Assembly: GCA_947589215.1 (NCBI GenBank)
Contig: CANQCL010000018.1
Location: forward strand, 1 to 36,193
Source of the DNA: an uncultured Clostridia bacterium
GTDB taxonomy: Bacteria; Bacillota; Clostridia; Oscillospirales; Ruminococcaceae
Direction: 5' to 3'
Length of the DNA stretch: 36,193 bases
In this document: positions 2,768-13,871 of the stretch, one piece after another
How positions within the stretch are numbered: position 1 is the stretch's first letter
Layout: the number at the start of each line of letters is the position of its first letter
Program-made: the position numbers and the translations under genes
The notes under the pieces: generated by a model
Databases searched by the model: none
The model's input: only the letters and a program-made list of their open reading frames with translations
Told to the model about the DNA's origin: nothing

Positions 2768-5263
2768 TTATTTTATAAGACCCCAAATATCTCTTGCATA
2801 ATCTTCAACAGCTCTGTCAGCAGAGAAAACACCTGCGCAAGCTATATTTTCTAGAGACATCTTCTGCCATCTGGTCTGGTCCTTGTAGCACTCTGAAGCA
2901 AAAGCCTGAGCTCTTTGATAATCTTCAAAGTCAGCCAGCACCATGTAAGGATCGCTGAATTTGAGAGAGTTTGCAATTTCTTCAAAAGTATTTCCGTTCA
3001 CACCGCCGTAAAGCTTGTCGATAGAAGAGCGTATAATACTGTTTTCATTATAGAATTTTTCAGGGTGGTATGAAGATTTTCTAGCCGTTACCTCGTCTGA
3101 ACTCATACCAAAAGTTATGATGTTTTCCTTTCCGACCTGTTCATATATCTCAACATTAGCGCCGTCCATCGTACCGAGAGTAACAGCGCCGTTAAGCATA
3201 AGCTTCATATTGCCTGTTCCCGAAGCCTCTGTTCCGGCAAGAGAGATCTGTTCTGATATCTCAGCGGCAGGCATAAGCATTTCCGAAAGTGTAACGCAAT
3301 AGTCCTCTAAGAATATAACAGAAAGCTTTTCGTTTATCTGAGGGTTTTTCTTTAATTCCTCACCGATCGACCATATCAGCTTGATGATCTGCTTTGCCAG
3401 ATAGTATCCGGGAGCTGCCTTTGCGGCAAAGATATAAGTTTTCGGAACAAAATCAGCATTTGGATTTTCAAGAAGATAATTATACTGAGAAATAATATTC
3501 AAGGCATTTAAGTGCTGTCTCTTGTATTCGTGCAGACGTTTTACTTGAACGTCGAATATTGAATCCGTGTTCAAGGTTATGCCGTACTTGCTTTTTACGT
3601 ATTTTGCAAAGGTATCTTTGTTTTGCTTTTTAATTTTTGCCAGACTGTCTAAAACATCTTTATCGTCTTTAAAAACCTCAAGCTTTTTAAGCATAGCGCC
3701 GTTTTTAAGAAAATCGCTGCCTATTTTTTCACGAAGCAGATTTGTAAGACCGGGATTAGACTGATAAAGCCACCTTCTGTATGCGATACCGTTTGTAACG
3801 TTTTTAAACTTATTAGGGCAGTCGACATATTCATCGTGGAAAACTGTGTTTTTAACGATTTCAGAATGAATTTTAGAAACTCCGTTTACGCTGTGGCAAG
3901 CGTGAACACACAGATTTGCCATTTTAACTAGGTTATTACTGATAATTGACATACGAGAAACAAGTGCTTCGTCGTCGTATCTTTCCATAAGGTCTCTGCA
4001 ATATCTTTCGTTTATTTCTACAATGATTGAGAAAATTCTCGGCGTGACCTGTTTTAGAAGGTTACAGTCCCATTTTTCCAAAGCCTCAGCCATTACAGTG
4101 TGATTTGTGTATGCAAATGTGTTGGTTACAATGTGCCAAGCCTTATTCCAAGAAAATCCGCAGTCGTCGAGCATAACTCTCATAAGCTCCGGAATCGCAA
4201 GGGTAGGGTGGGTATCGTTTATATGAATGGCAACCTTTTCGTGCAGATTGTCAAGGGTACCGTAGGTTCTCATATGCCTGTCGACAATGTCTGCAATAGA
4301 AGCTGCACACATAAAATACTGCTGTCTGAGTCTTAAAGATTTACCCTCTGCGTGGTTATCGTTAGGATAAAGTACCTTTGATATTGCCTGTGCAACTACG
4401 TTTTGACCCAGAGCCTTTTCATAATCGCCGCTGTTGAACATTCCCATATCAAACGACGGACACTCAGCTTTCCACAATCTGAGCCTCGACACAGATTCGC
4501 TGTCATATCCGGAAACGTATAAGTCATATGGAACGGCTAAAACTGTAGTGTAATTTTCGTGAATGACGCAGTGGTACTGATTGTCCCAGTATTCCTTTAA
4601 ATCTCCGTCGAAATGTATCTCGACCTGTCTGTTGCTTCTTCTTACAAGCCAGCAGTTTCCGCCCGGAAGCCAGTTGTCAGGCAGTTCTGTCTGCCATCCG
4701 TCCTCAAGCTTTTGCTTGAAAATACCGTATTCATAGCATATAGAATATCCCGTTGCGGCATATCCCTGAGTTGCAAGTCCGTCAAGATAGCAGGCTGCAA
4801 GACGTCCTAATCCGCCGTTTCCAAGACCTGCGTCAGGCTCACAGTCAAAAAGACTATTTATATTAACGCCGAATTCTTTCATTACCTCTGTTGCTTCGTT
4901 GATAATATCAAGATTATAAAGAGAAGTTTTTAGAGATCTTCCCATCAAAAACTCCATTGACAAATAGTAAACCTGCTTTTTGCCGTCGGAGTTTACCTTG
5001 TTCATAAATTTTTTGTGCTTTTCCTGCATTAAATCTACAATAATCATAGAGAGAGTTTCATATAAAGCTTTGTCTGATACTTCATCAGGGGTTGTGTCAA
5101 ACTCTTGATCCAGAATTTTCAGAATTCTCTCTTTTAATTCGTTCTTTGAAATAAGCTTATTGCCGTTTACCTTTTTTGTAGCTGCTGTCGTTTTTTTCTT
5201 TACGGCAGGTGCTTTAGTATTTAAGGAAGCCGTTTTGTTTTCTGACTTCTTAGTTGACGCCAT
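2768..5263 (-). CDS. glgP: Glycogen/starch (alpha-glucan) phosphorylase
   Basis: Cytosolic PLP enzyme that releases glucose-1-phosphate from the non-reducing ends of glycogen or other alpha-1,4-glucans. The 831-residue product has the full family length (GT35). The PLP-binding signature EASGTGNMKLMLNG places the Schiff-base lysine at about residue 687; YYLSMEFLMGRSL, GLGNGGLGRLAACYLD and VQVKRLHEYKRQ are further family blocks. The ATG at 5263 has AAAGGACGG upstream. An in-frame ATG at 5377 lies inside the -35 box and is not a start. The first about 45 residues are a Lys/Ala/Thr-rich extension (KKSENKTASL, VKKKTTAATKK) not typical of bacterial GlgP. No other glycogen gene is nearby, so it appears to be a lone transcription unit. 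Confidence 0.97.
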   Translation of the reverse strand: MASTKKSENKTASLNTKAPAVKKKTTAATKKVNGNKLISKNELKERILKILDQEFDTTPDEVSDKALYETLSMIIVDLMQEKHKKFMNKVNSDGKKQVYYLSMEFLMGRSLKTSLYNLDIINEATEVMKEFGVNINSLFDCEPDAGLGNGGLGRLAACYLDGLATQGYAATGYSICYEYGIFKQKLEDGWQTELPDNWLPGGNCWLVRRSNRQVEIHFDGDLKEYWDNQYHCVIHENYTTVLAVPYDLYVSGYDSESVSRLRLWKAECPSFDMGMFNSGDYEKALGQNVVAQAISKVLYPNDNHAEGKSLRLRQQYFMCAASIADIVDRHMRTYGTLDNLHEKVAIHINDTHPTLAIPELMRVMLDDCGFSWNKAWHIVTNTFAYTNHTVMAEALEKWDCNLLKQVTPRIFSIIVEINERYCRDLMERYDDEALVSRMSIISNNLVKMANLCVHACHSVNGVSKIHSEIVKNTVFHDEYVDCPNKFKNVTNGIAYRRWLYQSNPGLTNLLREKIGSDFLKNGAMLKKLEVFKDDKDVLDSLAKIKKQNKDTFAKYVKSKYGITLNTDSIFDVQVKRLHEYKRQHLNALNIISQYNYLLENPNADFVPKTYIFAAKAAPGYYLAKQIIKLIWSIGEELKKNPQINEKLSVIFLEDYCVTLSEMLMPAAEISEQISLAGTEASGTGNMKLMLNGAVTLGTMDGANVEIYEQVGKENIITFGMSSDEVTARKSSYHPEKFYNENSIIRSSIDKLYGGVNGNTFEEIANSLKFSDPYMVLADFEDYQRAQAFASECYKDQTRWQKMSLENIACAGVFSADRAVEDYARDIWGLIK

Positions 5264-5348
5264 AAATGTGACCGTCCTTTCTTTCTGAAATAAAAATACT
5301 TTATAGCTAATACTATTTTCATAGCCATTCTCAGCCAAATATAACCTG

Positions 5349-5377
5349 ATTATACAGTAATATTGCCTAATTGTCAA
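5349..5377 (-). promoter_or_regulatory. Perfect consensus sigma-A promoter of glgP
   Basis: On the minus strand TTGACA (5377-5372), a 17-bp spacer, TATAAT (5354-5349). Transcription would begin near 5341, giving a leader of about 78 nt before the ATG at 5263. Confidence 0.9.
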
Positions 5378-5527
5378 GGTGGTTTTTTATACAAAATGCC
5401 AAAAAATATATGGTTTTAAAAAGTATACTATTAATTATTATTTCCGGTTAAATTGTTTTTAGTATGACATTTAAGTATGAATTTTGCTTTTTTCAGCGTA
5501 AATTTCAAATACAATAAAATATTTTTT
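5378..5527. other. AT-rich gap between glgP and the phage-derived cassette
   Basis: No gene or recognisable RNA is seen. Scattered AT hexamers resemble -10 boxes, but none has a convincing -35 at 16-18 bp. Confidence 0.5.
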
Positions 5528-5540
5528 AAAAAGTTGCATT
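5528..5540 (+). repeat. 13-bp direct repeat left of the phage-derived cassette
   Basis: AAAAAGTTGCATT occurs here and again at 12680-12692, bracketing exactly the phage-type genes. It could be a remnant of attachment-site cores or a chance AT-rich match. Confidence 0.35.
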
Positions 5541-5558
5541 AAAACGTGCAACTTTTTT
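5528..5558 (+). terminator. Strong hairpin with T tract immediately before the phage-derived cassette
   Basis: AAAAAGTTGCA (5528-5538) and TGCAACTTTTTT (from 5547) form an 11-bp perfect stem with an 8-nt loop and a T-rich tail. It points towards the cassette, with no plus-strand gene in front of it back to spoVS. It may therefore be an attenuator or insulator of the cassette (inference). Confidence 0.75.
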
Positions 5559-5641
5559 GTTTTTTGCAGGATAAGTGAAAGGACAAATAGTTCTTTCATT
5601 TCTCAGGTCAGGAGAAAATCATATACGAAAGGAGAACGGAT

Positions 5642-6049
5642 GTGAGAAAATTTTCGGACAGAAAAATCTGTTCAACTCCGGCAGTTGAGCTTGCAAAGCT
5701 TGCACTTGGCAGAATGCTTTTCTCTGATAAAAAAGAAGCTGTAAAACTTTCTTTGAGCGACGGTGAGAATGTGAACATAAAATCACTAAGCGCAGAAAGT
5801 CTGAATGCAGTTTCGGATATTAAGAGAAATAAAGACGGCGGTGTTGATATAAAGCTGTTTGATATGATAAAGGCGGCAGAGCTTATGTTTGAGATCGGCA
5901 AGGAGGAAAACAGCAATGAGGAAAGCGGAGCAGAATTTCTTGAAGGTTTTTTAAAGTCGGCAAGACAGCTTAGCTCATCACAAGAGACTGCAAAGGAAAT
6001 TGCTGAACAATGTGAGCATTCCTGTTCTGATGGGGTGAGTGAAGCTTGA
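5642..6049 (+). CDS. Phage terminase small subunit-like protein
   Basis: Likely the DNA-recognition subunit of a headful-type packaging motor. The 135-residue product sits directly before a clear large terminase. Its central block IKSLSAESLNAVSDIKR followed by GGVDIKLFDMIKAAELM resembles the C-terminal oligomerisation region of small terminases, where a conserved IKLYDKLKALELL-type helix is usual. A helix-turn-helix is not obvious in the N-terminal 50 residues, which are rather short for the family, so DNA binding could be altered. The start is GTG, with AAAGGAG 7 nt upstream; an ATG two bases earlier is immediately followed by TGA. The stop overlaps the next start by four bases, indicating translational coupling. 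Confidence 0.7.
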   Translation: MRKFSDRKICSTPAVELAKLALGRMLFSDKKEAVKLSLSDGENVNIKSLSAESLNAVSDIKRNKDGGVDIKLFDMIKAAELMFEIGKEENSNEESGAEFLEGFLKSARQLSSSQETAKEIAEQCEHSCSDGVSEA

Positions 6050-7314
6050 TAAAAAACAAGGCTTACAAAAGGTACTCAAAAAAGCAGATGCAGGTTATGA
6101 CCTGGTGGGCGGACGACCGCTATAAGGATAAAGATGTCATTATCTGCGACGGCGCTGTCAGAAGCGGTAAGACCACCTGTATGGCATTTTCGTTTGTTAT
6201 GTGGGCTATGACTGAGTTTAACGGGCGGACATTCGGGTTATGCGGAAAAACAATCACCTCCCTCAAGCGTAATCTGGCAGAGCCGCTGAAAGAAATGCTC
6301 AGGCATACAGGACTGAAGCTAAAGGAAAATTCAACTAAGAACTACCTAGAAGTATCAAACGGAAAGTATAAAAACAGGTTTTACTATTTCGGCGGAAAGG
6401 ACGAAAGCTCGGCGGCTCTTATTCAGGGAATAACTTTAGCAGGAGTTTTGCTCGATGAGGTTGCGCTTATGCCGAGATCTTTTGTTGAACAGGCGATCGC
6501 AAGATGTTCTGTTACCGACTCGAAGCTTTGGTTTAACTGCAATCCTGATAACCCTTATCACTGGTTTAAGAAAGAGTGGATCGATAAGATTGAGGACAAG
6601 AACGGATTGTATTTAAAGTTTACTTTAGACGATAATCCGTCGCTGAGCAAAAAGGTGATAAAACGATATCACAGTCTTTACTCAGGAGCTTTCTATGAGC
6701 GTTTTGTACTGGGAAACTGGTCTAGCGTTTACGGCTGTGTATATCCTATGTTCGATCCTGAGCTCCACACCTTTTCAGAGCCGCCCGAACACATTGAAAG
6801 GTATGCTGTGTCCTGCGATTACGGAACAGTAAATCCCTCATCATTCGGATTGTGGGGCTATTCAGACGGTGTGTGGTACCGCTTAAAGGAATACTATTAT
6901 AACTCCAGAACTGAGGGCTTTCAGCGCACAGATGAGGAGCATTACAAAGGCTTAGAAGAGCTTTGTTCCGGCTGTGAAATAAAGCCGGAGGCAGTTGTGT
7001 GCGATCCGTCGGCGGCATCGTTTATCGAGTGTATAAGACGGCATGGGGTTTTCAATGTTATTCCAGCGAAAAATGATGTCATGAGCGGTATACGCAAGGT
7101 TAGCGACGCCATTACCGATGGAAAAATAAAAATTTCAAAATCCTGCACCGATACGCTACGGGAGTTTACTCTTTACCGCTGGGACGAAAAAAGCGGAACA
7201 GATTGTCCTGTTAAGGAAAACGACCACGCAATGGACGATATAAGGTATTTTGTTTCTGCTTTTGTATATACGTTGGGTGACGATTTTTTTGTGATGTCAC
7301 TTGACAGAGAGTAA
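6046..7314 (+). CDS. Phage terminase large subunit, PBSX-type
   Basis: ATP-driven DNA-packaging motor with an endonuclease domain. The 422-residue length is normal for the family. The ATPase half shows Walker A GAVRSGKT (36-43), Walker B VLLDEV (Asp137, Glu138) and the coupling block NCNPDNPYHWFKKEW (164-178) typical of PBSX-like enzymes. The nuclease half keeps the acidic residues of the RNase H fold: Asp258 in CDYGT, Asp320 in VVCDPSAASF and Asp397/398 in HAMDDIRYF. All catalytic positions appear present and there is no frameshift, so the protein is probably functional. It starts at TTG (6046) inside the stop region of the preceding gene, with GGGTGAG just upstream. Confidence 0.95.
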   Translation: MIKNKAYKRYSKKQMQVMTWWADDRYKDKDVIICDGAVRSGKTTCMAFSFVMWAMTEFNGRTFGLCGKTITSLKRNLAEPLKEMLRHTGLKLKENSTKNYLEVSNGKYKNRFYYFGGKDESSAALIQGITLAGVLLDEVALMPRSFVEQAIARCSVTDSKLWFNCNPDNPYHWFKKEWIDKIEDKNGLYLKFTLDDNPSLSKKVIKRYHSLYSGAFYERFVLGNWSSVYGCVYPMFDPELHTFSEPPEHIERYAVSCDYGTVNPSSFGLWGYSDGVWYRLKEYYYNSRTEGFQRTDEEHYKGLEELCSGCEIKPEAVVCDPSAASFIECIRRHGVFNVIPAKNDVMSGIRKVSDAITDGKIKISKSCTDTLREFTLYRWDEKSGTDCPVKENDHAMDDIRYFVSAFVYTLGDDFFVMSLDRE

Positions 7315-7367
7315 AGAGCCTTTAACCAATAAACGGTTGCTTACAAATCAAAAAAGGAACGATAAAA

Positions 7368-8555
7368 ATGAAACTTAAATTCAAAGAAAAAGAACCAAAG
7401 GCAGTTAGGTTTGAGCCAATTGCCTCCTCGGCAGAAAGGGCAAACGGCAAAGAAATCTTTCGCTTAGCGCCGACAGCGTATACCTTTGAACAGGAATTTT
7501 ACGAAACCTTGAGAAGTCAAGTACCGATATTAGACGCCTGCATCGCAAAGATTGTAAGGCTTACAGGCGGATTTAAGCTTGTATGCGAGGACGAGAGATA
7601 TCAAACCGAGCTTGAAGAGTTTATGGACACTATCCCCGTAGGTATTTCGGGCTCGTCATTGAATACCTTTGTGGATATTCATCTCGATCAGCTTTTGACT
7701 TACGGAAAGGCGATAGGAGAAATTTTGATTGATCCGAAAACCAAGCAGGTGTGCGGTATATACAATGCCGACCCTACGCATTTTGAAGTCAAGGAGGGCG
7801 AGACCCCTTGCGACAGACGTATTTACGCAATAAGCGGCGCTAATGATCGGCTAATTGAATATCCCGAAAGGATACTTTATTCAGCACTTAACCCAAATCC
7901 TAAAAACACAAACGGTGTTTCAATATTTAGGGGACTTCCCAGCTTAGCGGGAATACTTATGAAGGTTTACGACTGCGTAGGTCAGAACTTCGACCGTATA
8001 GGTAACATAAGATATGCGGTAACCTATAAGCCGACAAATGAAAACGATAAGGCTTTTGCTAAGGAACGTGCAATGCAGATAGCAAAGGAATGGTCGGACG
8101 GGATGAACGCATCTCGAAACGGAATAGTTAAGGACTTCGTTGCGGTGGGCGATGTTGAAATAAAGGTTATCGGTGCGGATAATCAGATTATTGACACTGA
8201 GGTTCCGGTACGACAGCTTTTAGAACAAATGATTTCAAAGCTTGCAATTCCGCCGTTTCTGTTGGGGCTAAACTGGTCGACTACCGAGAGAATGAGCCAG
8301 CAGCAGTGCGATATTTTAACAAGCGAGCTTGAATATTTCCGCAGACTTCTAACACCGGTCATTCGCAAAATTTGCGAAACTTATCTTCATCTTTTGGGTG
8401 CGGACAGCAGAGTGTTTGTAGAGTGGGATAATATCAATCTTCAAGATGAAACTGAACTGGCTAAATCAAGACTTTATAACGCTCAGGCGGAGGCGCTTGA
8501 AATAGAGAACGAAAGGAGAAAAGCAAATGGCGGGGAAGTCAGCGAAACTGAGTAA
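7368..8555 (+). CDS. Phage portal protein
   Basis: Predicted dodecameric portal at one vertex of the capsid, the channel for DNA and docking site of the terminase. The 395-residue product follows the large terminase directly. It has portal-like features: an early LDACIAKIVRLTGGFKLV helix/strand block, the YNADPTHFEV and RILYSALNPNPKNTNGVSIFR region, and SKLAIPPFLLGLNWSTTERM followed by a long helix ending in QAEALEIENERRK, matching the common portal pattern of an I(P)P.LLG block and a C-terminal coiled segment. The start has AAAAAGGAACG upstream. The last 29 bp overlap the following gene. Confidence 0.85.
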   Translation: MKLKFKEKEPKAVRFEPIASSAERANGKEIFRLAPTAYTFEQEFYETLRSQVPILDACIAKIVRLTGGFKLVCEDERYQTELEEFMDTIPVGISGSSLNTFVDIHLDQLLTYGKAIGEILIDPKTKQVCGIYNADPTHFEVKEGETPCDRRIYAISGANDRLIEYPERILYSALNPNPKNTNGVSIFRGLPSLAGILMKVYDCVGQNFDRIGNIRYAVTYKPTNENDKAFAKERAMQIAKEWSDGMNASRNGIVKDFVAVGDVEIKVIGADNQIIDTEVPVRQLLEQMISKLAIPPFLLGLNWSTTERMSQQQCDILTSELEYFRRLLTPVIRKICETYLHLLGADSRVFVEWDNINLQDETELAKSRLYNAQAEALEIENERRKANGGEVSETE

Positions 8556-9486
8556 TTCGGACGGTTTTGAAATAAACGATGAGATTATGGCAAAAATCAA
8601 CGTCTACACAAGAAAAGAACTTACATCAGACGAGGTTTATGCTTTTCCTATTATCCTTTGCGACAATGATGTCGACAGGGACTATGAGCGTTTTTCTGTT
8701 AAGTCTTTAGAGGCTTTGGCAGAACTGTTTATCGGTAAAACGGGTATTTTTGACCACAATCCCAAAGGCGAAAATCAGACAGCCAGAATCTTTGACGCCG
8801 AGGTTAAAATTGATAAGAGCAAAAAGACTGTAAACGGCGAGGATTATACTTATCTGCTTGCAAAGGCGTATATGCTTAAAAACCAAAAAACACAGGATTT
8901 AGTATCTGAAATTGAAGCCGGAATAAAAAAAGAGGTTTCAATAAGCTGTAAAATCGACAGCGAGATATGTTCTGTCTGCGGAGCGGATAAGCGTATAAAG
9001 CCGTGTGCACACATAAAGGGAAGAACCTACGGTAATAAGGTTTGTCATACGGTTCTGGAACGTCCGTCTGACGCTTATGAATGGTCATTTGTTGCAATTC
9101 CGGCACAGCCGAACGCCGGAGTTTCAAAAAGCTTTTCGGATTCTTTTGATGATGACTGTTTAGAAGTAAGAAAGAAAACTGTCTGTAAATCAAAGGATGT
9201 GCTGTTAAAGGAGCTTAAACAGAAGGACGATATGATCTCGATGCTTTATGACGAGTTAAGGCGTGATGTTATATCAATGAAGTATTTATGCGATCCATTA
9301 ACGTCAAGAGAAGATTTTGAAAAAACAATTTCTGAGCTAGACTGCGAAAAGCTGTTGGATCTTAAGAAAACGCTTTTTGAAAAAACTCAGAACAGAAGTC
9401 TTTTTACGCCTCAGCTTTGGACGAAAAAAGACAGTTTATATTCACAAAGCAAACAAAAAAACAATCAATTTAAGCTAGGAAAATAG
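8527..9486 (+). CDS. XkdF/prohead-protease-like protein with zinc-cluster insert and coiled-coil C-terminus
   Basis: Probably the capsid maturation protease, perhaps fused to a scaffold. The 319-residue product lies between portal and capsid genes, the standard place. Candidate catalytic residues of the HK97-type serine protease fold are His77 (GIFDHNPKG) and Ser138 or Ser140 (KKEVSISC). A Cys/His cluster follows (C148, C151, C160, H162, C173, H174), which could hold one or two metal ions, then EWSFVAIPAQPNAGVSK, a block typical of XkdF-type proteins. Residues about 210-300 are charged and helical (LLKELKQKDDMISMLYDELR), resembling a scaffold or delta domain. The start has AAAGGAG 8 nt upstream and lies within the portal gene. 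Activity is inferred, not shown. Confidence 0.75.
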   Translation: MAGKSAKLSNSDGFEINDEIMAKINVYTRKELTSDEVYAFPIILCDNDVDRDYERFSVKSLEALAELFIGKTGIFDHNPKGENQTARIFDAEVKIDKSKKTVNGEDYTYLLAKAYMLKNQKTQDLVSEIEAGIKKEVSISCKIDSEICSVCGADKRIKPCAHIKGRTYGNKVCHTVLERPSDAYEWSFVAIPAQPNAGVSKSFSDSFDDDCLEVRKKTVCKSKDVLLKELKQKDDMISMLYDELRRDVISMKYLCDPLTSREDFEKTISELDCEKLLDLKKTLFEKTQNRSLFTPQLWTKKDSLYSQSKQKNNQFKLGK

Positions 9487-9507
9487 CTTTAGAAAAGGAG
9501 AAAAATT

Positions 9508-10479
9508 ATGTATAAAGATATAAAATTAGAAAAGGGACTTTACAACATTACAGGAAAGAGCTTTACAAGAGCATTGACCGATTTAGACCCTGATGAAAAC
9601 TATAAGGATACAGATCTGGCAGGACTAGACGCTTATGAGCGTCAGCTTAAGAGATTTGACATCAAGGTACACGGAGAAAACTGCGACCGTGTAGAGAAAT
9701 TCTTCCTTTCAACCGAATCGGCAGTTTTGTTCCCTGAGTTCGTAAGAAGATGTATTAAAGAGGGTATGGATAAGGCTTCTATCTTATCTGAAGTCATAGC
9801 TGCAACCACTTTAACTGATGAGCTTACTTATCGAGGACTGACTATTACAAAGTCAGGAACGGACAATGCAGTTCCTGAGGGCGGTACATTGCCAAATACA
9901 ACCGTAAGGCTTACAGCAGCCGGAATTAATCTTTCTAAATTTGCAAGGAAGCTTTCCTGCTCATATGAATCGATCAGAAAACACAGAATAGAAACCTTTG
10001 CTGTTATTCTGAGAGATCTGGGCGCTCAGATTTCAAGAGCAGTAAACAAGCAGGCAATAAGCGTTCTGAACGCTGGCGTTTCACCTTCTACACTTATCGG
10101 AGATACTCTTACATACGCTGATTTGGCTAAGTTCTGGGCGTCAATGGATTCATATGATATGACTACAATGCTTTGCTCACCGGCTGATATGGCTACGATT
10201 CTTGCATTTGATGAAATGAAATACTGCGTATCCGACTATATGACAAGCGGTATGGTTAAAACTCCTTACGGAGTAACAATTGTAAAATGTGCCGGCTTAC
10301 AGGATGGTTTAGCTATCGGCGTCGATAAAAACTGCGCTCTTGAAATGATTTACGGAACAGATATTATTGTTGATTTCGATAAGCTTCTTTCAACGCAGTG
10401 TGATGAAGTTGCTTGCTCTATCACAGTAGGATTTTCAAAGATTGCCAGCGATGCAGTTAAGGCTTTGGAAACTGCTTAA
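9508..10479 (+). CDS. Major capsid protein (HK97-fold type)
   Basis: Predicted shell protein of the phage-derived particle. The 323-residue product follows the protease directly and has a strong ribosome site (AAAAGGAG). The N-terminal about 65 residues are charged and may be a scaffold-like arm. The core shows capsid-like segments: LTYRGLTITKSGTDNAVPEGGTLPN, described here by its ends (about 109-133), a long helix with RDLGAQISRAVNKQAISVL, then DYMTSGMVKTPYGVTIVKC and a beta-rich end. This matches the E-loop, spine helix and A-domain order of HK97-like shells. It is full length, with no internal stop. The assignment rests on gene order and overall pattern. Confidence 0.78.
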   Translation: MYKDIKLEKGLYNITGKSFTRALTDLDPDENYKDTDLAGLDAYERQLKRFDIKVHGENCDRVEKFFLSTESAVLFPEFVRRCIKEGMDKASILSEVIAATTLTDELTYRGLTITKSGTDNAVPEGGTLPNTTVRLTAAGINLSKFARKLSCSYESIRKHRIETFAVILRDLGAQISRAVNKQAISVLNAGVSPSTLIGDTLTYADLAKFWASMDSYDMTTMLCSPADMATILAFDEMKYCVSDYMTSGMVKTPYGVTIVKCAGLQDGLAIGVDKNCALEMIYGTDIIVDFDKLLSTQCDEVACSITVGFSKIASDAVKALETA

Positions 10480-10525
10480 TGCAGCAGGCTTAACGGTTAA
10501 AATTTAAAAAACAGGAGTGTTTTAA

Positions 10526-10894
10526 ATGGACCTCGAATCTATTACTGATATATTTCAGTCTATCTCTGAGCTTTCAAAAAGCGATGTACAAAATTACAGC
10601 GATACTATAGACGACGCAAAGGATTTTATCGAAAAAAAGCTTATTTCTGCTCCCACAGCGCCGGAAGATATAAAAAGATGCGAATATGCAGCGGCTTGCG
10701 TGGCTTATTATGATTACACTATTCTCTCTTTGATGAGGGAAAAAAGAGGAATTACACTTACAGGCTCTGCAACAGAATCTCTAAATCCTAATGAAAGGCT
10801 TGCAGGGGCAAGAGAGCTCAGAAACAATGCGCTATTACGCATTTCTGACTTGACGCAGGATATGGATTTTATCTTTACCTCTGTAAGGGGATAA
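10526..10894 (+). CDS. Head-tail connector/adaptor-like protein
   Basis: A 122-residue mainly helical protein directly after the capsid gene, where the gp6/gp15-type connector is normally coded. The sequence (DTIDDAKDFIEKKLIS, then EDIKRCEYAAACVAYYDYTILS) has the long-helix pattern of such adaptors, which ring the portal. A role in joining portal to tail is inferred from this position. AGGAG precedes the ATG by about 10 nt. Only 2 bp separate it from the next gene. Confidence 0.6.
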   Translation: MDLESITDIFQSISELSKSDVQNYSDTIDDAKDFIEKKLISAPTAPEDIKRCEYAAACVAYYDYTILSLMREKRGITLTGSATESLNPNERLAGARELRNNALLRISDLTQDMDFIFTSVRG

Positions 10895-10896
10895 AA

Positions 10897-11298
10897 ATGT
10901 TTGAAGATTTAAAAGCAAGTATTAACCAAGTTTTATCTGCTGATGGGATTGATATGTATGATGAGTATTCGGATATAGATTTAATAAAGAGCTATAATCA
11001 AAATGTTGGTTTTTTGAGCGTTAAAAAAGTTGAAAAAATCAATGATTATAAGAATTTATTAAATGTAAAATCATGTGAGGTTTTTGTTACTCTTGAATGT
11101 AAGGTTATTGCTAAAAAGGGTATTTCAGCAGAAGCGTTCTCCCAGACAATGAATAATATTTATACGGATTTCTTGTTCAGTGATGATTTTATGCCGGTTT
11201 CACTGGATTTGGAGAATTTAAAAATTAACAGTCTTTACTCTCGCCTTGAAACAAATCTGACCTTTAAATTCAGGTATTTTTTAACCGATACAGTGTAA
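10897..11298 (+). CDS. Small phage protein of unknown function, possibly tail terminator/completion
   Basis: I do not recognise this 133-residue protein with confidence. It begins with a short helix (MFEDLKASINQVL), then alternates predicted strands, and ends FKFRYFLTDTV. By position after the connector it could be a head-tail or tail-terminator factor. The start has AAGGGGAT 5-6 nt upstream and is 2 bp from the previous stop, so it is probably translated together with it. From here to 12665 the DNA looks more AT-rich than in the terminase-portal part. Confidence 0.55.
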   Translation: MFEDLKASINQVLSADGIDMYDEYSDIDLIKSYNQNVGFLSVKKVEKINDYKNLLNVKSCEVFVTLECKVIAKKGISAEAFSQTMNNIYTDFLFSDDFMPVSLDLENLKINSLYSRLETNLTFKFRYFLTDTV

Positions 11299-11327
11299 AA
11301 AGTGTGAACTAAAAAGGGGAAAAGAAT

Positions 11328-11687
11328 ATGACAGAAAAAAATTCAAAACATTTGATCGCAATGAATGTAGACACTTTTAAGTTCTATGTTAAGGATTATA
11401 AAATTTTCAGATCTGCAAAGACTTCAGAGATAACAACATTCTCAAAGCAAAGGGGAATTTGTTATTTAGGATTTGGTCCTAAAAGAATCAAGGCAACAGC
11501 TATTGCTGACAAGGAAAGACTGAATCAGTTAATTATGGTTCTTAATGACTTTATTGTCACAGATTCACACAGCGTTTCTGTTGAGGAATTAAGTTTAGGT
11601 AATTATAGATTGATTGACTATGAAATTTGCGGTTCTGATGAAGATTATATTTATGAGGTCAAGCTGAATTTGTGCAGCCTTGTTTAG
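11328..11687 (+). CDS. Small phage-cassette protein of unknown function
   Basis: A 119-residue protein that I cannot assign. It alternates strands and short helices: LIAMNVDTFKFYVKDYKIF, then GICYLGFGPKRIKATAIADK and RLIDYEICGSDEDYIYEVKL. It lacks a signal peptide or membrane segment. Its place between a possible tail-completion gene and a baseplate-hub-like gene suggests a tail or tip part, but a tail-tube protein would normally be longer. AAAAGGGG lies about 8 nt before the ATG. Confidence 0.5.
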   Translation: MTEKNSKHLIAMNVDTFKFYVKDYKIFRSAKTSEITTFSKQRGICYLGFGPKRIKATAIADKERLNQLIMVLNDFIVTDSHSVSVEELSLGNYRLIDYEICGSDEDYIYEVKLNLCSLV

Positions 11688-11708
11688 AATACTTAAAACT
11701 ATTACGAA

Positions 11709-12665
11709 ATGACGGTGATATATATTAATAATGTAAGTGCAGAAATAAGAGTGATGGATTCAAACCAATCAGTGCATACGGTCACTTTGTATGAATGTAT
11801 TTATTTTAGTGTTGATAAGGAAAGATATACTCCTTACACAACCTTTAGAGGGTCTTTTATTATACCGCAATATTATGAAGAGATAATTTCTATAAGATTT
11901 ATTATCGACGGTGTTGATGTTCATTACGGTTCGGTTGATATGGCAAAAATGGTATTCAAGAACGGAAATTACAGATTGGATATAAATTCACGTTCATATA
12001 CTCTTGCTTTGGGGCTTAATCAGCCGAAGCCTGAAATAAATTCAAACGTGACGCTCAGAAATATAATATTTTCAAATGTAGCCGTTAAAAATATCACTTA
12101 TGAGGGCGGAACAAAAGCTATCAATTATATATACGTATTAGATAACTCTACCTTATGGGACGCTGTTGTAGCGTACTCAATAAAAGCATATGGAACTTAT
12201 CCGTTTGTTTATAAAACAAATGAGGTAAGGGTAAATGCTCCTACCAGTGTTATATCACGTGATTATTATGACAATTCTCTGATAGAAGTATATAACGGTT
12301 CGACCTTGTCAAATTTGATTTCTGATATTCACATGAGGGATACTGAAGGTAATTACGAAACTTATAACTTATCCGACATTTATGCAAGTGCAAGAGATAT
12401 CGTAAGGCATAAGCAGATACCGCTTGATAAGCAATGGCTTGACTATACAGATATAGCATTGACAAGCAGAATTGATTTTGCAAAAAGAGGTACAAAGTTC
12501 AACGGTATCAAGGTTTTAGGGTATTCAGGTGAAGAGTTGTTTGATGAGTTTTCATATTATCTAGAAGATACAAGTTATACAAACTGTGCAATTCATAAGC
12601 TGAATATAACCGGAAGCAATAATGTTATCTATACAACGATGTATCATTATACCGACGCATATTAA
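11709..12665 (+). CDS. Baseplate hub-like protein (gpD/XkdQ-type) - tentative
   Basis: A 318-residue beta-rich protein. The order of an N-terminal barrel-like region (RGSFIIPQYYEEIISIRFIID), a middle part (NVTLRNIIFSNVAVKNITYE, then STLWDAVVAYSIKAYGTYPF) and later strands is like phage late-control/XkdQ hub proteins, in which a short helix-rich LWD(A/L)I.AY segment precedes beta strands. The match is by pattern only. The ATG at 11709 has no good Shine-Dalgarno sequence, so translation may be coupled or the true start may differ. It is the last gene of the cassette, and no tape-measure, tube, sheath or lysis gene follows. Confidence 0.5.
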   Translation: MTVIYINNVSAEIRVMDSNQSVHTVTLYECIYFSVDKERYTPYTTFRGSFIIPQYYEEIISIRFIIDGVDVHYGSVDMAKMVFKNGNYRLDINSRSYTLALGLNQPKPEINSNVTLRNIIFSNVAVKNITYEGGTKAINYIYVLDNSTLWDAVVAYSIKAYGTYPFVYKTNEVRVNAPTSVISRDYYDNSLIEVYNGSTLSNLISDIHMRDTEGNYETYNLSDIYASARDIVRHKQIPLDKQWLDYTDIALTSRIDFAKRGTKFNGIKVLGYSGEELFDEFSYYLEDTSYTNCAIHKLNITGSNNVIYTTMYHYTDAY

Positions 12666-12679
12666 TTTAAGAAATAAGC

Positions 12680-12692
12680 AAAAAGTTGCATT
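12680..12692 (+). repeat. 13-bp direct repeat right of the phage-derived cassette
   Basis: AAAAAGTTGCATT, identical to 5528-5540, located 15 bp past the last cassette gene. Here it is not part of a hairpin. Confidence 0.35.
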
Positions 12693-12723
12693 CTTTTGAT
12701 TAACATTATAATTTTGTACAAAC

Positions 12724-12764
12724 AAAAAGGAACAGATTTTCCAAAACGGAAAGCTGTTCCTTTT
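12724..12764. terminator. Bidirectional terminator between the phage cassette and the coiled-coil gene
   Basis: AAAAGGAACAG pairs with CTGTTCCTTTT, with an inner TTTCC/GGAAA extension. A T-rich tail occurs on both strands. It can stop the plus-strand cassette and the minus-strand operon that ends at 12792. Confidence 0.85.
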
Positions 12765-12791
12765 GCTTTTATAAAGTATATTAGCTATGCG

Positions 12792-13262
12792 TTATTTTGA
12801 GTTGTTTTTAGGAGCATTTGCAGCCTTTACTGCTGCTCTTGTGCTTTTTATATTATTTAGAGTAGAAGCTAACGACTCCTCAGTTGAAGCCAGCATACTG
12901 TCGATCTTTTCAGACATAGCATTTCGAATATCTCTATCCATAGCATAAGCCTGCGCGGTTATTTCGGCAGCCTGTTCCTTCGCCTGTTTTAAAATCTCCT
13001 CATTTGATACCAAAACCTTAGCCCTGTCCTCAGCCTTTTTGATAATAACCTCTGCTTTTTTATTGGCTTCAGTCATTATAATGGCCTTGTCATTCTGAAG
13101 CTCTTTTGCCTTCTTGATATCAGATGGTAGATTATACCTTATGCTGTCAATATACTCTCTCAGCTTTTCAGTATCAACAAGTGTTTTCTTGTTCGTGAAT
13201 GGAACAGTAACCGCTTTGTCCAGTAACTCATCCATTAAGTCTAAAATCTCGTCAATCTTCAT
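12792..13262 (-). CDS. Conserved coiled-coil protein of unknown function
   Basis: 156 residues, with no signal peptide or membrane segment. The first 50 residues (MKIDEILDLMDELLDKAVTV) look like a small helical domain. Residues about 55-145 form a long charged coiled coil with Ala/Lys/Glu heptads (ANKKAEVIIKKAEDRAKVLV), similar in texture to ATP synthase b/E-type stalk subunits or DivIVA-like scaffolds. No ATP-binding motif is present, so an ATPase label would be unsupported. GGAGAG lies about 8 nt before the ATG. It is last in the order rsmD-coaD-this gene, a neighbourhood I associate with Clostridia. The function is unknown. Confidence 0.75.
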   Translation of the reverse strand: MKIDEILDLMDELLDKAVTVPFTNKKTLVDTEKLREYIDSIRYNLPSDIKKAKELQNDKAIIMTEANKKAEVIIKKAEDRAKVLVSNEEILKQAKEQAAEITAQAYAMDRDIRNAMSEKIDSMLASTEESLASTLNNIKSTRAAVKAANAPKNNSK

Positions 13263-13326
13263 TTTTATCTCTCCTCACTTTTTTTAAGGCTTTTGCCCCG
13301 TTTCTTCATTTTGTTTGATTTATTTT

Positions 13327-13385: not shown

Positions 13386-13871
13386 TTATTTCGCAATCCT
13401 GTTGTTTATAATCTCTAGTACGTCCGACGGTACAAATTCGCTTATATCACCGCCGTAGCTTGCTATTTCTTTCACAACGCTTGAACTGAGATACATATTT
13501 TCTGCCCTTGTTGTAAGGAAAATAGTATCCGCTTTTTCATATAGCTTTTTGTTCGCAAGCGCCTGCTGAAATTCGTATTCAAAGTCTGTGACAGCTCTTA
13601 GTCCTTTTACAATGGCTACAGCGCCCTTATCTTTGCAGTATTCAGCTAAAAGCCCGTCGCATTTATCAACCGTTACATTAGGCAAATGCTTAGAAACAGA
13701 CTTTATCATTTCCATACGCTCTTCTGCTGTGAAGCTGTATGCCTTTTGCGAATTGATAGAAACAGCGACGATAACTTCATCAAATAGCTCAGAAGCACGT
13801 TCGATTATATCAAGATGTCCTAAGGTCACAGGGTCAAAACTGCCAGGACATACCGCTATTTTTTTATTCAT
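13386..13871 (-). CDS. coaD: Phosphopantetheine adenylyltransferase (CoaD)
   Basis: Transfers AMP from ATP to 4'-phosphopantetheine to make dephospho-CoA, the fourth step of coenzyme A synthesis in the cytosol. The 161-residue length is standard. The nucleotidyl-transferase motif GSFDPVTLGH is at residues 10-19 (His19 catalytic), AIVKGLRAVTDFEYEFQ is in the middle, and ENMYLSSSVVKEIASYGGDIS is the typical C-terminal ISSTxVR-like block. It begins 29 bp after the rsmD stop, so the two are probably co-transcribed; the rsmD-coaD pair is common in bacteria. Confidence 0.97.
   Translation of the reverse strand: MNKKIAVCPGSFDPVTLGHLDIIERASELFDEVIVAVSINSQKAYSFTAEERMEMIKSVSKHLPNVTVDKCDGLLAEYCKDKGAVAIVKGLRAVTDFEYEFQQALANKKLYEKADTIFLTTRAENMYLSSSVVKEIASYGGDISEFVPSDVLEIINNRIAK

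Follow-up and report, generated by a model that had tools for sequence, protein, structure and literature searches.

Gene transfer agents (GTAs) are well defined mainly in Alphaproteobacteria. RcGTA, the agent of Rhodobacter capsulatus, is produced from co-regulated dispersed loci and carries a full siphovirus-like tail, and PBSX of Bacillus subtilis possesses a sheath, a tube and a tape measure. The head genes of RcGTA are described as domesticated and its small terminase (TerS) as lacking the N-terminal DNA-binding domain, an absence proposed as the basis of random packaging in the portions of the paper used here (PMC6854486). PBSX is regarded as a GTA-like element of a Gram-positive bacterium, and the closest described system to the one reported below is FpGTA of the gut bacterium Faecalibacterium (Borodovich et al. 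2026, PMC12946183). The portions of that paper on which we draw describe a chromosomal cassette of TerS, large terminase (TerL), portal, head protein and capsid genes, nearly ubiquitous in its genus, with lysis genes in a separate locus; a second operon, FpGTA II, holding baseplate, fibre, receptor-binding protein, holin and endolysin genes together; a TerS without an obvious DNA-binding domain; and 40-nm particles with about 9 kb of DNA (PMC12946183). The operon is reported there in Faecalibacterium and not in Gemmiger or Subdoligranulum (PMC12946183). A gut virome study of 2026 further saw GTA-like packaging in many Ruminococcaceae and Oscillospiraceae, with a class of 4.6 kb in Ruminococcus callidus and with events in CAG-115 as well, and in the same portions names a gene cluster for Faecalibacterium only (PMC12946183). 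Here we analyse a stretch of 36,193 nucleotides (the window) from an uncultured Clostridia bacterium of the Ruminococcaceae (assembly GCA_947589215.1, contig CANQCL010000018.1), in which nine phage-type head and packaging genes, the cassette, stand between glgP and coaD. The cassette probably belongs to a vertically inherited, dispersed and likely co-regulated GTA-like system of a kind similar to FpGTA. A sequence-only reading of the window had raised the idea of a domesticated, GTA-like particle, and this idea is supported by a portal gene in 14/15 genomes of the genus, by purifying selection and by a tree with the minimum of changes. Domestication of the cassette is strongly supported, and GTA-like function is the most likely reading. 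In titles and abstracts on GTAs in Clostridia, Ruminococcaceae, Oscillospir- names and the like, among the matches listed (bioRxiv and most subscription papers lie outside), the cassette, the regulon and their spread are undescribed, the FpGTA paper apart.

The same reading had placed nine open plus-strand genes of this type between chromosomal genes, and we confirm them at 5642–12665, as TerS, TerL, portal, prohead protease, capsid, three small proteins and a Mu gp44-like hub. The features of the locus, in window positions, are as follows.

2768–5377, minus strand: flank, glgP glycogen phosphorylase (PF00343; syntenic in relatives)
5533–5552, plus strand: palindrome GTTGCATTAAAACGTGCAAC, proposed regulator site (conserved in the ten-genome alignment)
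5553–5579, plus strand: T-tract and TATA-like box ATAAGTGAA (5571–5579), proposed promoter half (spacing at labelled sites)
5580–5641, plus strand: conserved leader before terS; contains two short inverted repeats (seen by eye) and probably a ribosome-binding site (ten-genome alignment)
5642–6049, plus strand: TerS-like small terminase without the N-terminal Terminase_2/helix-turn-helix part (alignment with eight TerS from other genera)
6046–7314, plus strand: TerL large terminase (PF03237, PF17289, phrog_2; constraint given below)
7368–8555, plus strand: portal protein (phrog_30703, 1.2e-144; constraint and tree given below)
8527–9486, plus strand: prohead protease, with a Cys/His zinc-ribbon-like insert and a C-terminal helical (scaffold-like) part
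9508–10479, plus strand: major capsid protein (PF25209, phrog_3922)
10526–10894, plus strand: g6, candidate head-tail connector of 122 amino acids (position; conserved in relatives)
10897–11298, plus strand: g7, small protein of 133 amino acids, candidate neck protein (position; constraint given below)
11328–11687, plus strand: g8, small fast-evolving protein of 119 amino acids (46–76% identity among close relatives)
11709–12665, plus strand: baseplate hub protein, Mu gp44-like
12792–13262, minus strand: flank, 156-amino-acid protein with no Pfam match
13386–13871, minus strand: flank, coaD (name from the sequence-only reading; PF01467; syntenic in relatives)

The identities of the hub and protease draw partly on predicted folds, and the true start of the hub gene is probably after codon 5. 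Searches of Pfam and PHROG-type families gave no convincing match for g6 or g7; the capsid has homologues in 5966 clusters at E 0.001. An Rfam scan of 5380–13300 gave no match. We considered a 13-bp direct repeat, AAAAAGTTGCATT, at both ends of the cassette as a possible att site; it is absent from the downstream regions of relatives that we printed and is thus put down to chance. At 34–1947 the window also encodes a BspA-type leucine-rich-repeat protein with a fibronectin III domain, adjoining spoVS.

Are these genes maintained like cellular genes? Pairwise Nei–Gojobori estimates from 7–10 genomes (pairs with a proportion of synonymous differences, pS, below 0.7; approximate, the median synonymous divergence dS being near 1) gave median ratios of nonsynonymous to synonymous change (dN/dS) of 0.035 for the portal, 0.045 for TerL and 0.095 for the capsid, and of 0.10 for g6, 0.145 for the protease, 0.145 for the hub, 0.18 for TerS, 0.19 for g7 and 0.27 for g8. 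The neighbours gave 0.035 (glgP), 0.035 (coaD), 0.034 (the 156-amino-acid gene), 0.027 (nifU), 0.036 (nifS) and 0.071 (rsmD). TerL and the portal are therefore constrained as glgP and coaD are, and the packaging core evolves like housekeeping genes; the remaining cassette genes change two to eight times faster, yet stay far below 1. The purifying selection that the sequence-only reading had proposed as a check is thus present across the whole range of medians (0.035–0.27, not near 1): phage-derived head and packaging genes persist intact in the host chromosome and are under purifying selection. The g8 protein differs sharply between otherwise near-identical relatives (76% identity to the window in locus L098, 47% in L099), which suggests that alleles may have been replaced or that the tail side may be under diversifying pressure.

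The position of the cassette is also kept. In nine loci fetched from the close clade within the genus the gene order is retained, and eight of them end against the same 156-amino-acid gene and coaD; in the ninth, L105, a contig end cuts off the cassette inside the protease gene. On the opposite side glgP is present in eight close-clade loci and unmatched in L106. The whole arrangement of glgP, cassette, 156-amino-acid gene and coaD recurs in a different genus of the same family (L249). In four more distant members of the genus the cassette lies elsewhere, in three of them near glgP, and there genes seven and eight have diverged too far to be matched with those of the window. A portal tree of 118 rows required two changes to account for three families and 29 to account for 30 genera represented more than once, each the minimum possible; it is a quick maximum-likelihood tree with support from the Shimodaira–Hasegawa-like approximate likelihood ratio test (SH-aLRT) only (of its 115 inner branches, 47 reach at least 95), its rows are best-scoring and chosen loci and hence non-random, and single-member genera stand outside the genus count. 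The portal-less genome of the genus, G001, still carries the beginning of terS and the final part of the hub gene where the cassette would be expected (L304, 10150–10720); its flanks share 91–95% identical DNA with those of G002, and a stretch of about 6.3 kb is missing. To judge from these remnants, the absence is a deletion and not ancestral. At the break two alignments to G002 overlap by 19 nt, which suggests that a short repeat may have mediated the loss. None of the nine cassette proteins matches an integrase, and the cassette is inherited vertically with its host, without mobility genes of its own.

Could the cassette be a prophage remnant that is intact by chance, the alternative offered by the sequence-only reading? 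Its restriction to head-side genes and a hub would fit such an origin, and deletion scars do occur, as in G001. On the other side stand purifying selection on TerL and the portal like that on housekeeping genes, the minimal-change tree over three families and the lysis genes that carry the same upstream element (see below); neither the relaxed selection nor the strain-specific presence of a decaying remnant was found, and we consider this explanation extremely improbable. Confinement to one strain and clean absence from a close relative, two of the situations that the sequence-only reading had named as contrary to domestication, were both looked for and not encountered, since the portal is widespread in the genus and G001 keeps its scar. 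A third, a larger prophage in relatives, was answered in part: none was seen among the fetched copies, whose surrounding open-reading-frame maps are only partly annotated; each positive genome has one copy; and the 46.7-kb "phage" record MT835508.1, which carries the cassette, is a piece of bacterial chromosome (see below). HK97-type phage head modules share the canonical order of TerL, portal, assembly protease and capsid; the cassette differs from them in its single copy per genome, vertical inheritance, housekeeping flanks and constraint at a cellular level.

The portal was found once in every positive genome of the genus, family, order and second-family searches. In the family, order and second-family samples, which were drawn from genomes at least 90% complete, it is present in 116/248 genomes and 50/95 genera of the window's family, in 62/297 genomes, 37/146 genera and five families of an order-wide sample, and in 128/200 genomes and 69/107 genera of a second family. 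A class-level sample had nine positives among 393 genomes, all nine inside the order, which we take to be Oscillospirales, and none among the about 371 genomes outside it (judged from numbering), the search reaching class level at most. The second family includes Caproiciproducens, a second-family portal being 91% identical to that of C. faecalis in a scan of named genomes; NCBI places C. faecalis in Acutalibacteraceae. With this portal the scan returned 11 loci, in Caproiciproducens and other Clostridia, and no Faecalibacterium among them. In IMG/VR, relatives of TerL occur in at least 595 of 600 candidate stretches among the matches listed, and of the best 80 of those stretches 78 have the portal too; in three glgP lies beside it, so these contigs can be chromosomal. 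Six records of named phages matched, five of them unverified fecal "Bacteriophage sp." contigs and the sixth Microcystis phage MACPNOA1. One of the five, the cassette-bearing record MT835508.1 (L437; 46.7 kb, GenBank "Bacteriophage sp.", human fecal samples), is a fragment of a bacterial chromosome, a scan of ten proteins on its flanks having turned up rpoA, secY, rnf and nrdD, and is either misfiled or host DNA from particles.

Other terminases were met along the way. The window's own genome (G000) has two more distant TerL-like matches, on contig C3 (15756–16883) and contig C19 (29336–29869), with 25–29% identity, which are possibly prophages; the latter adjoins an SPP1-type holin match at C19:31203. 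Genus g13, a member of the host family without the window's system, has another compact terminase-portal cassette (L232, L233), with a TerL about 30% identical to that of the window and a PF05133-type portal, which may be another GTA or prophages.

What might control the cassette? The palindrome at 5533–5552 is part of a 12-pair hairpin with a T-run (5528–5557) and is matched once in the window at up to three mismatches, where 0.08 matches are expected. Aligned upstream regions of ten genomes conserve both the palindrome and the leader. A T-run lies on the gene side of the palindrome at 37/40 labelled sites, and AT...TGA[AG] follows it by 18–20 nt at 33/40 (vs 3% in shuffles). Hairpin and T-run would also fit a pure terminator or attenuator, which we regard as the less likely reading: the constant TATA-like spacing and the weaker T-runs in some other genera favour a promoter site. 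A generic promoter and terminator scan of 5380–12900 gave matches, terminator-like ones included, that were not above shuffles. Such an arrangement would suggest an activator site, centred near −40, together with a TATA-like box. Beyond the genus we took 24 cassette-bearing genomes from other genera, picked in part because the site had already been seen in some: 17 show a palindrome match, and in 13 one match lies 1.85–2.35 kb upstream of the portal, the distance from terS to the portal start. When eight such sites were read by eye, the TATA-like part could be made out in six, one of which belongs to the other genus clade.

The same element stands before single phage-type genes elsewhere in the chromosome. 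The pattern GTTGCANNNAAACGTGCAAC, with up to two mismatches, has 54 matches in 14/15 genus genomes, vs four for the backward control. In the own genome all five sites (5/5) precede phage-type genes: the cassette (contig C18), a Panacea gene (C19), a CHAP lysin (C24), a helicase loader (C1) and a holin pair (C6). Ten close-clade genomes hold 47 sites, of which 45 were examined; a site precedes terS in 10/10 genomes, the XhlA-like gene of the holin pair in 10/10, the CHAP lysin in 8/10 (nine counting genes at contig ends), a DnaD- or Lin1244-type helicase loader in 6/10 (seven on the same count) and the Panacea protein in 3/10. The SPP1-type holin of the pair, identified by PF04688 and phrog_263, is present in the same ten genomes; its partner, which we take to be XhlA-like, has phrog_1863, of unknown function, as its sole match, and the loader was identified by phrog_8489, phrog_2562 and PF14297. 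Holin pair and loader lie among chromosomal genes common to the loci of other species; the neighbours of the lysin are not common. In one further genus, two genomes have DUF6291/replisome-organizer-like genes next to the site, and in two g52 genomes (L400, L404) it adjoins a gene that by eye resembles spoVAC. A second CHAP lysin paralogue in the own genome (L291 875–4984, on C19) has no palindrome within four mismatches; it has an XRE-like regulator and a possible integrase nearby (assigned by eye in both cases), and the region is perhaps a small integrated element.

Judged by this shared element, cassette, holin pair, lysin and loader are probably co-regulated. Likeness to FpGTA is drawn here from described gene content; in contrast to FpGTA II, the holin pair, the lysin and the helicase loader each stand at a locus of their own, dispersed in the genome. 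A second operon of the FpGTA kind was looked for and not found, the own genome being without Baseplate_J. The dispersal bears as well on the idea of a mobile satellite such as a capsid-forming phage-inducible chromosomal island (PICI) borrowing the tails of a helper phage. Such islands have an integrase, a replication module and mobility, and a head gene set almost without tail genes would suit one; family searches with the nine cassette proteins gave no integrase or replication match, the cassette occupies the same chromosomal slot across close species with one copy per genome and a vertical tree, and the lysis and loader genes with the same element do not form one island. We therefore consider a satellite very improbable.

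The TerS of the window and of three members of the other genus clade begin, in alignment, after the first ~60 residues of Terminase_2, and a Terminase_2 search found no match in the TerS of the window or of L107. The loss of the N-terminal DNA-binding part, a GTA trait, is thus seen in the window's genus; the TerS of other genera have a Terminase_2 match in 9/9 (eight TerS, each from a different genus of the family, plus one from the second family).

Several points weigh against a GTA-like system. Unlike the full tail of RcGTA, the cassette stops at the hub, with no tail tube, tape measure or fibre gene, and the cassettes of close relatives end there likewise. A protein-family search found Baseplate_J in 1/15 genus genomes, so that the route of a particle into a recipient is unexplained. 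Other-genus TerS keep the Terminase_2 part, and packaging there may be site-specific. The portal was unmatched in 132/248 family and 235/297 order genomes; the system would then be dispensable or often lost. A distant true phage relative exists in Microcystis phage MACPNOA1 (portal identity 28%). Eight of the 45 sites have no recognised neighbour: three precede genes cut by contig ends (two sites one lysin, one a loader) and five are unexplained. The other four cassette-bearing genomes of the genus are without a homologue of the holin or DnaD-like gene, so regulon content varies. Finally, two of the 24 other-genus genomes have 13 (G046) and 20 (G134) palindrome matches, and most of the near-identical copies fetched precede unrelated genes and not recognised phage-type genes.

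Might the particles then be domesticated, made and released without delivering DNA, serving PBSX-like killing, immunity or a capsid with other cargo? The missing tube, tape and fibre genes and the absent Baseplate_J would suit such particles; the higher rate at which g7, g8 and the hub change, relative to the packaging core, could be the mark of a competitive role; and the authors of FpGTA themselves leave delivery open in the portions used here (PMC12946183). In the cassette there is no contractile tail of the PBSX kind, sheath, tube and tape all being absent. A longer cassette in the second family (L196) adds a sheath-initiator/GP46-like protein, Baseplate_J and a further tail protein, and this run recalls the XkdQ–XkdU order of PBSX. 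Constraint on TerL near housekeeping level indicates that DNA packaging itself matters, and the N-terminal part of TerS is lost as the portions used here describe for GTAs (PMC6854486). We hold non-delivering particles to be unlikely; delivery of DNA to recipients is itself unproven.

We propose that the head and packaging module of a phage ancestor became a fixed part of the chromosome in an ancestor shared by several families of a single clostridial order, and that it has passed down vertically since then, with losses, as a set of cellular genes. On some signal, a regulator would bind the palindrome ~40 bp upstream of the transcription start at several scattered promoters and switch on the head cassette, the XhlA-like/holin pair, the CHAP lysin and the DnaD-like helicase loader together. 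Capsids would assemble and be matured by the protease, TerS and TerL would package cellular DNA into them, a headful at a time and with little preference for particular sites, and the hub would close the portal vertex as a minimal tail tip. Holin and lysin would then release the particles, a gene transfer agent or a close functional equivalent. A more specific account is tentative: a single origin in the common ancestor of several families and near-strictly vertical descent since, at a scale of about half of the sampled family genomes and about a fifth across the order, with a dedicated promoter, a helicase-loader regulon and a hub-only head. Within it, we put forward with similar reserve that the bipartite promoter (GTTGCAC-N4-GTGCAAC, T-tract and TATAAGTGAAAGG) is conserved between genera and defines the dispersed regulon. 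With a DnaD-like helicase loader in the regulon, the cell may deliberately replicate extra host DNA to supply packaging, for which we know of no precedent in a GTA.

New here are the palindrome, T-tract and TATA-like box before terS and the occurrence of the same element before single dispersed phage-type genes. Since capsid relatives named Ruminococcus sp. are 63–67% identical (among the 120 matches listed), some of the GTA clusters missing in Ruminococcaceae and Oscillospiraceae have a concrete candidate in this cassette family. The same capsid relatives suggest that the host of the window is likely to be Ruminococcus-like. With the shared upstream element, the regulator and the remaining parts can be sought by sequence, and the question of when and why gut Clostridia would burst to release host DNA becomes directly testable.

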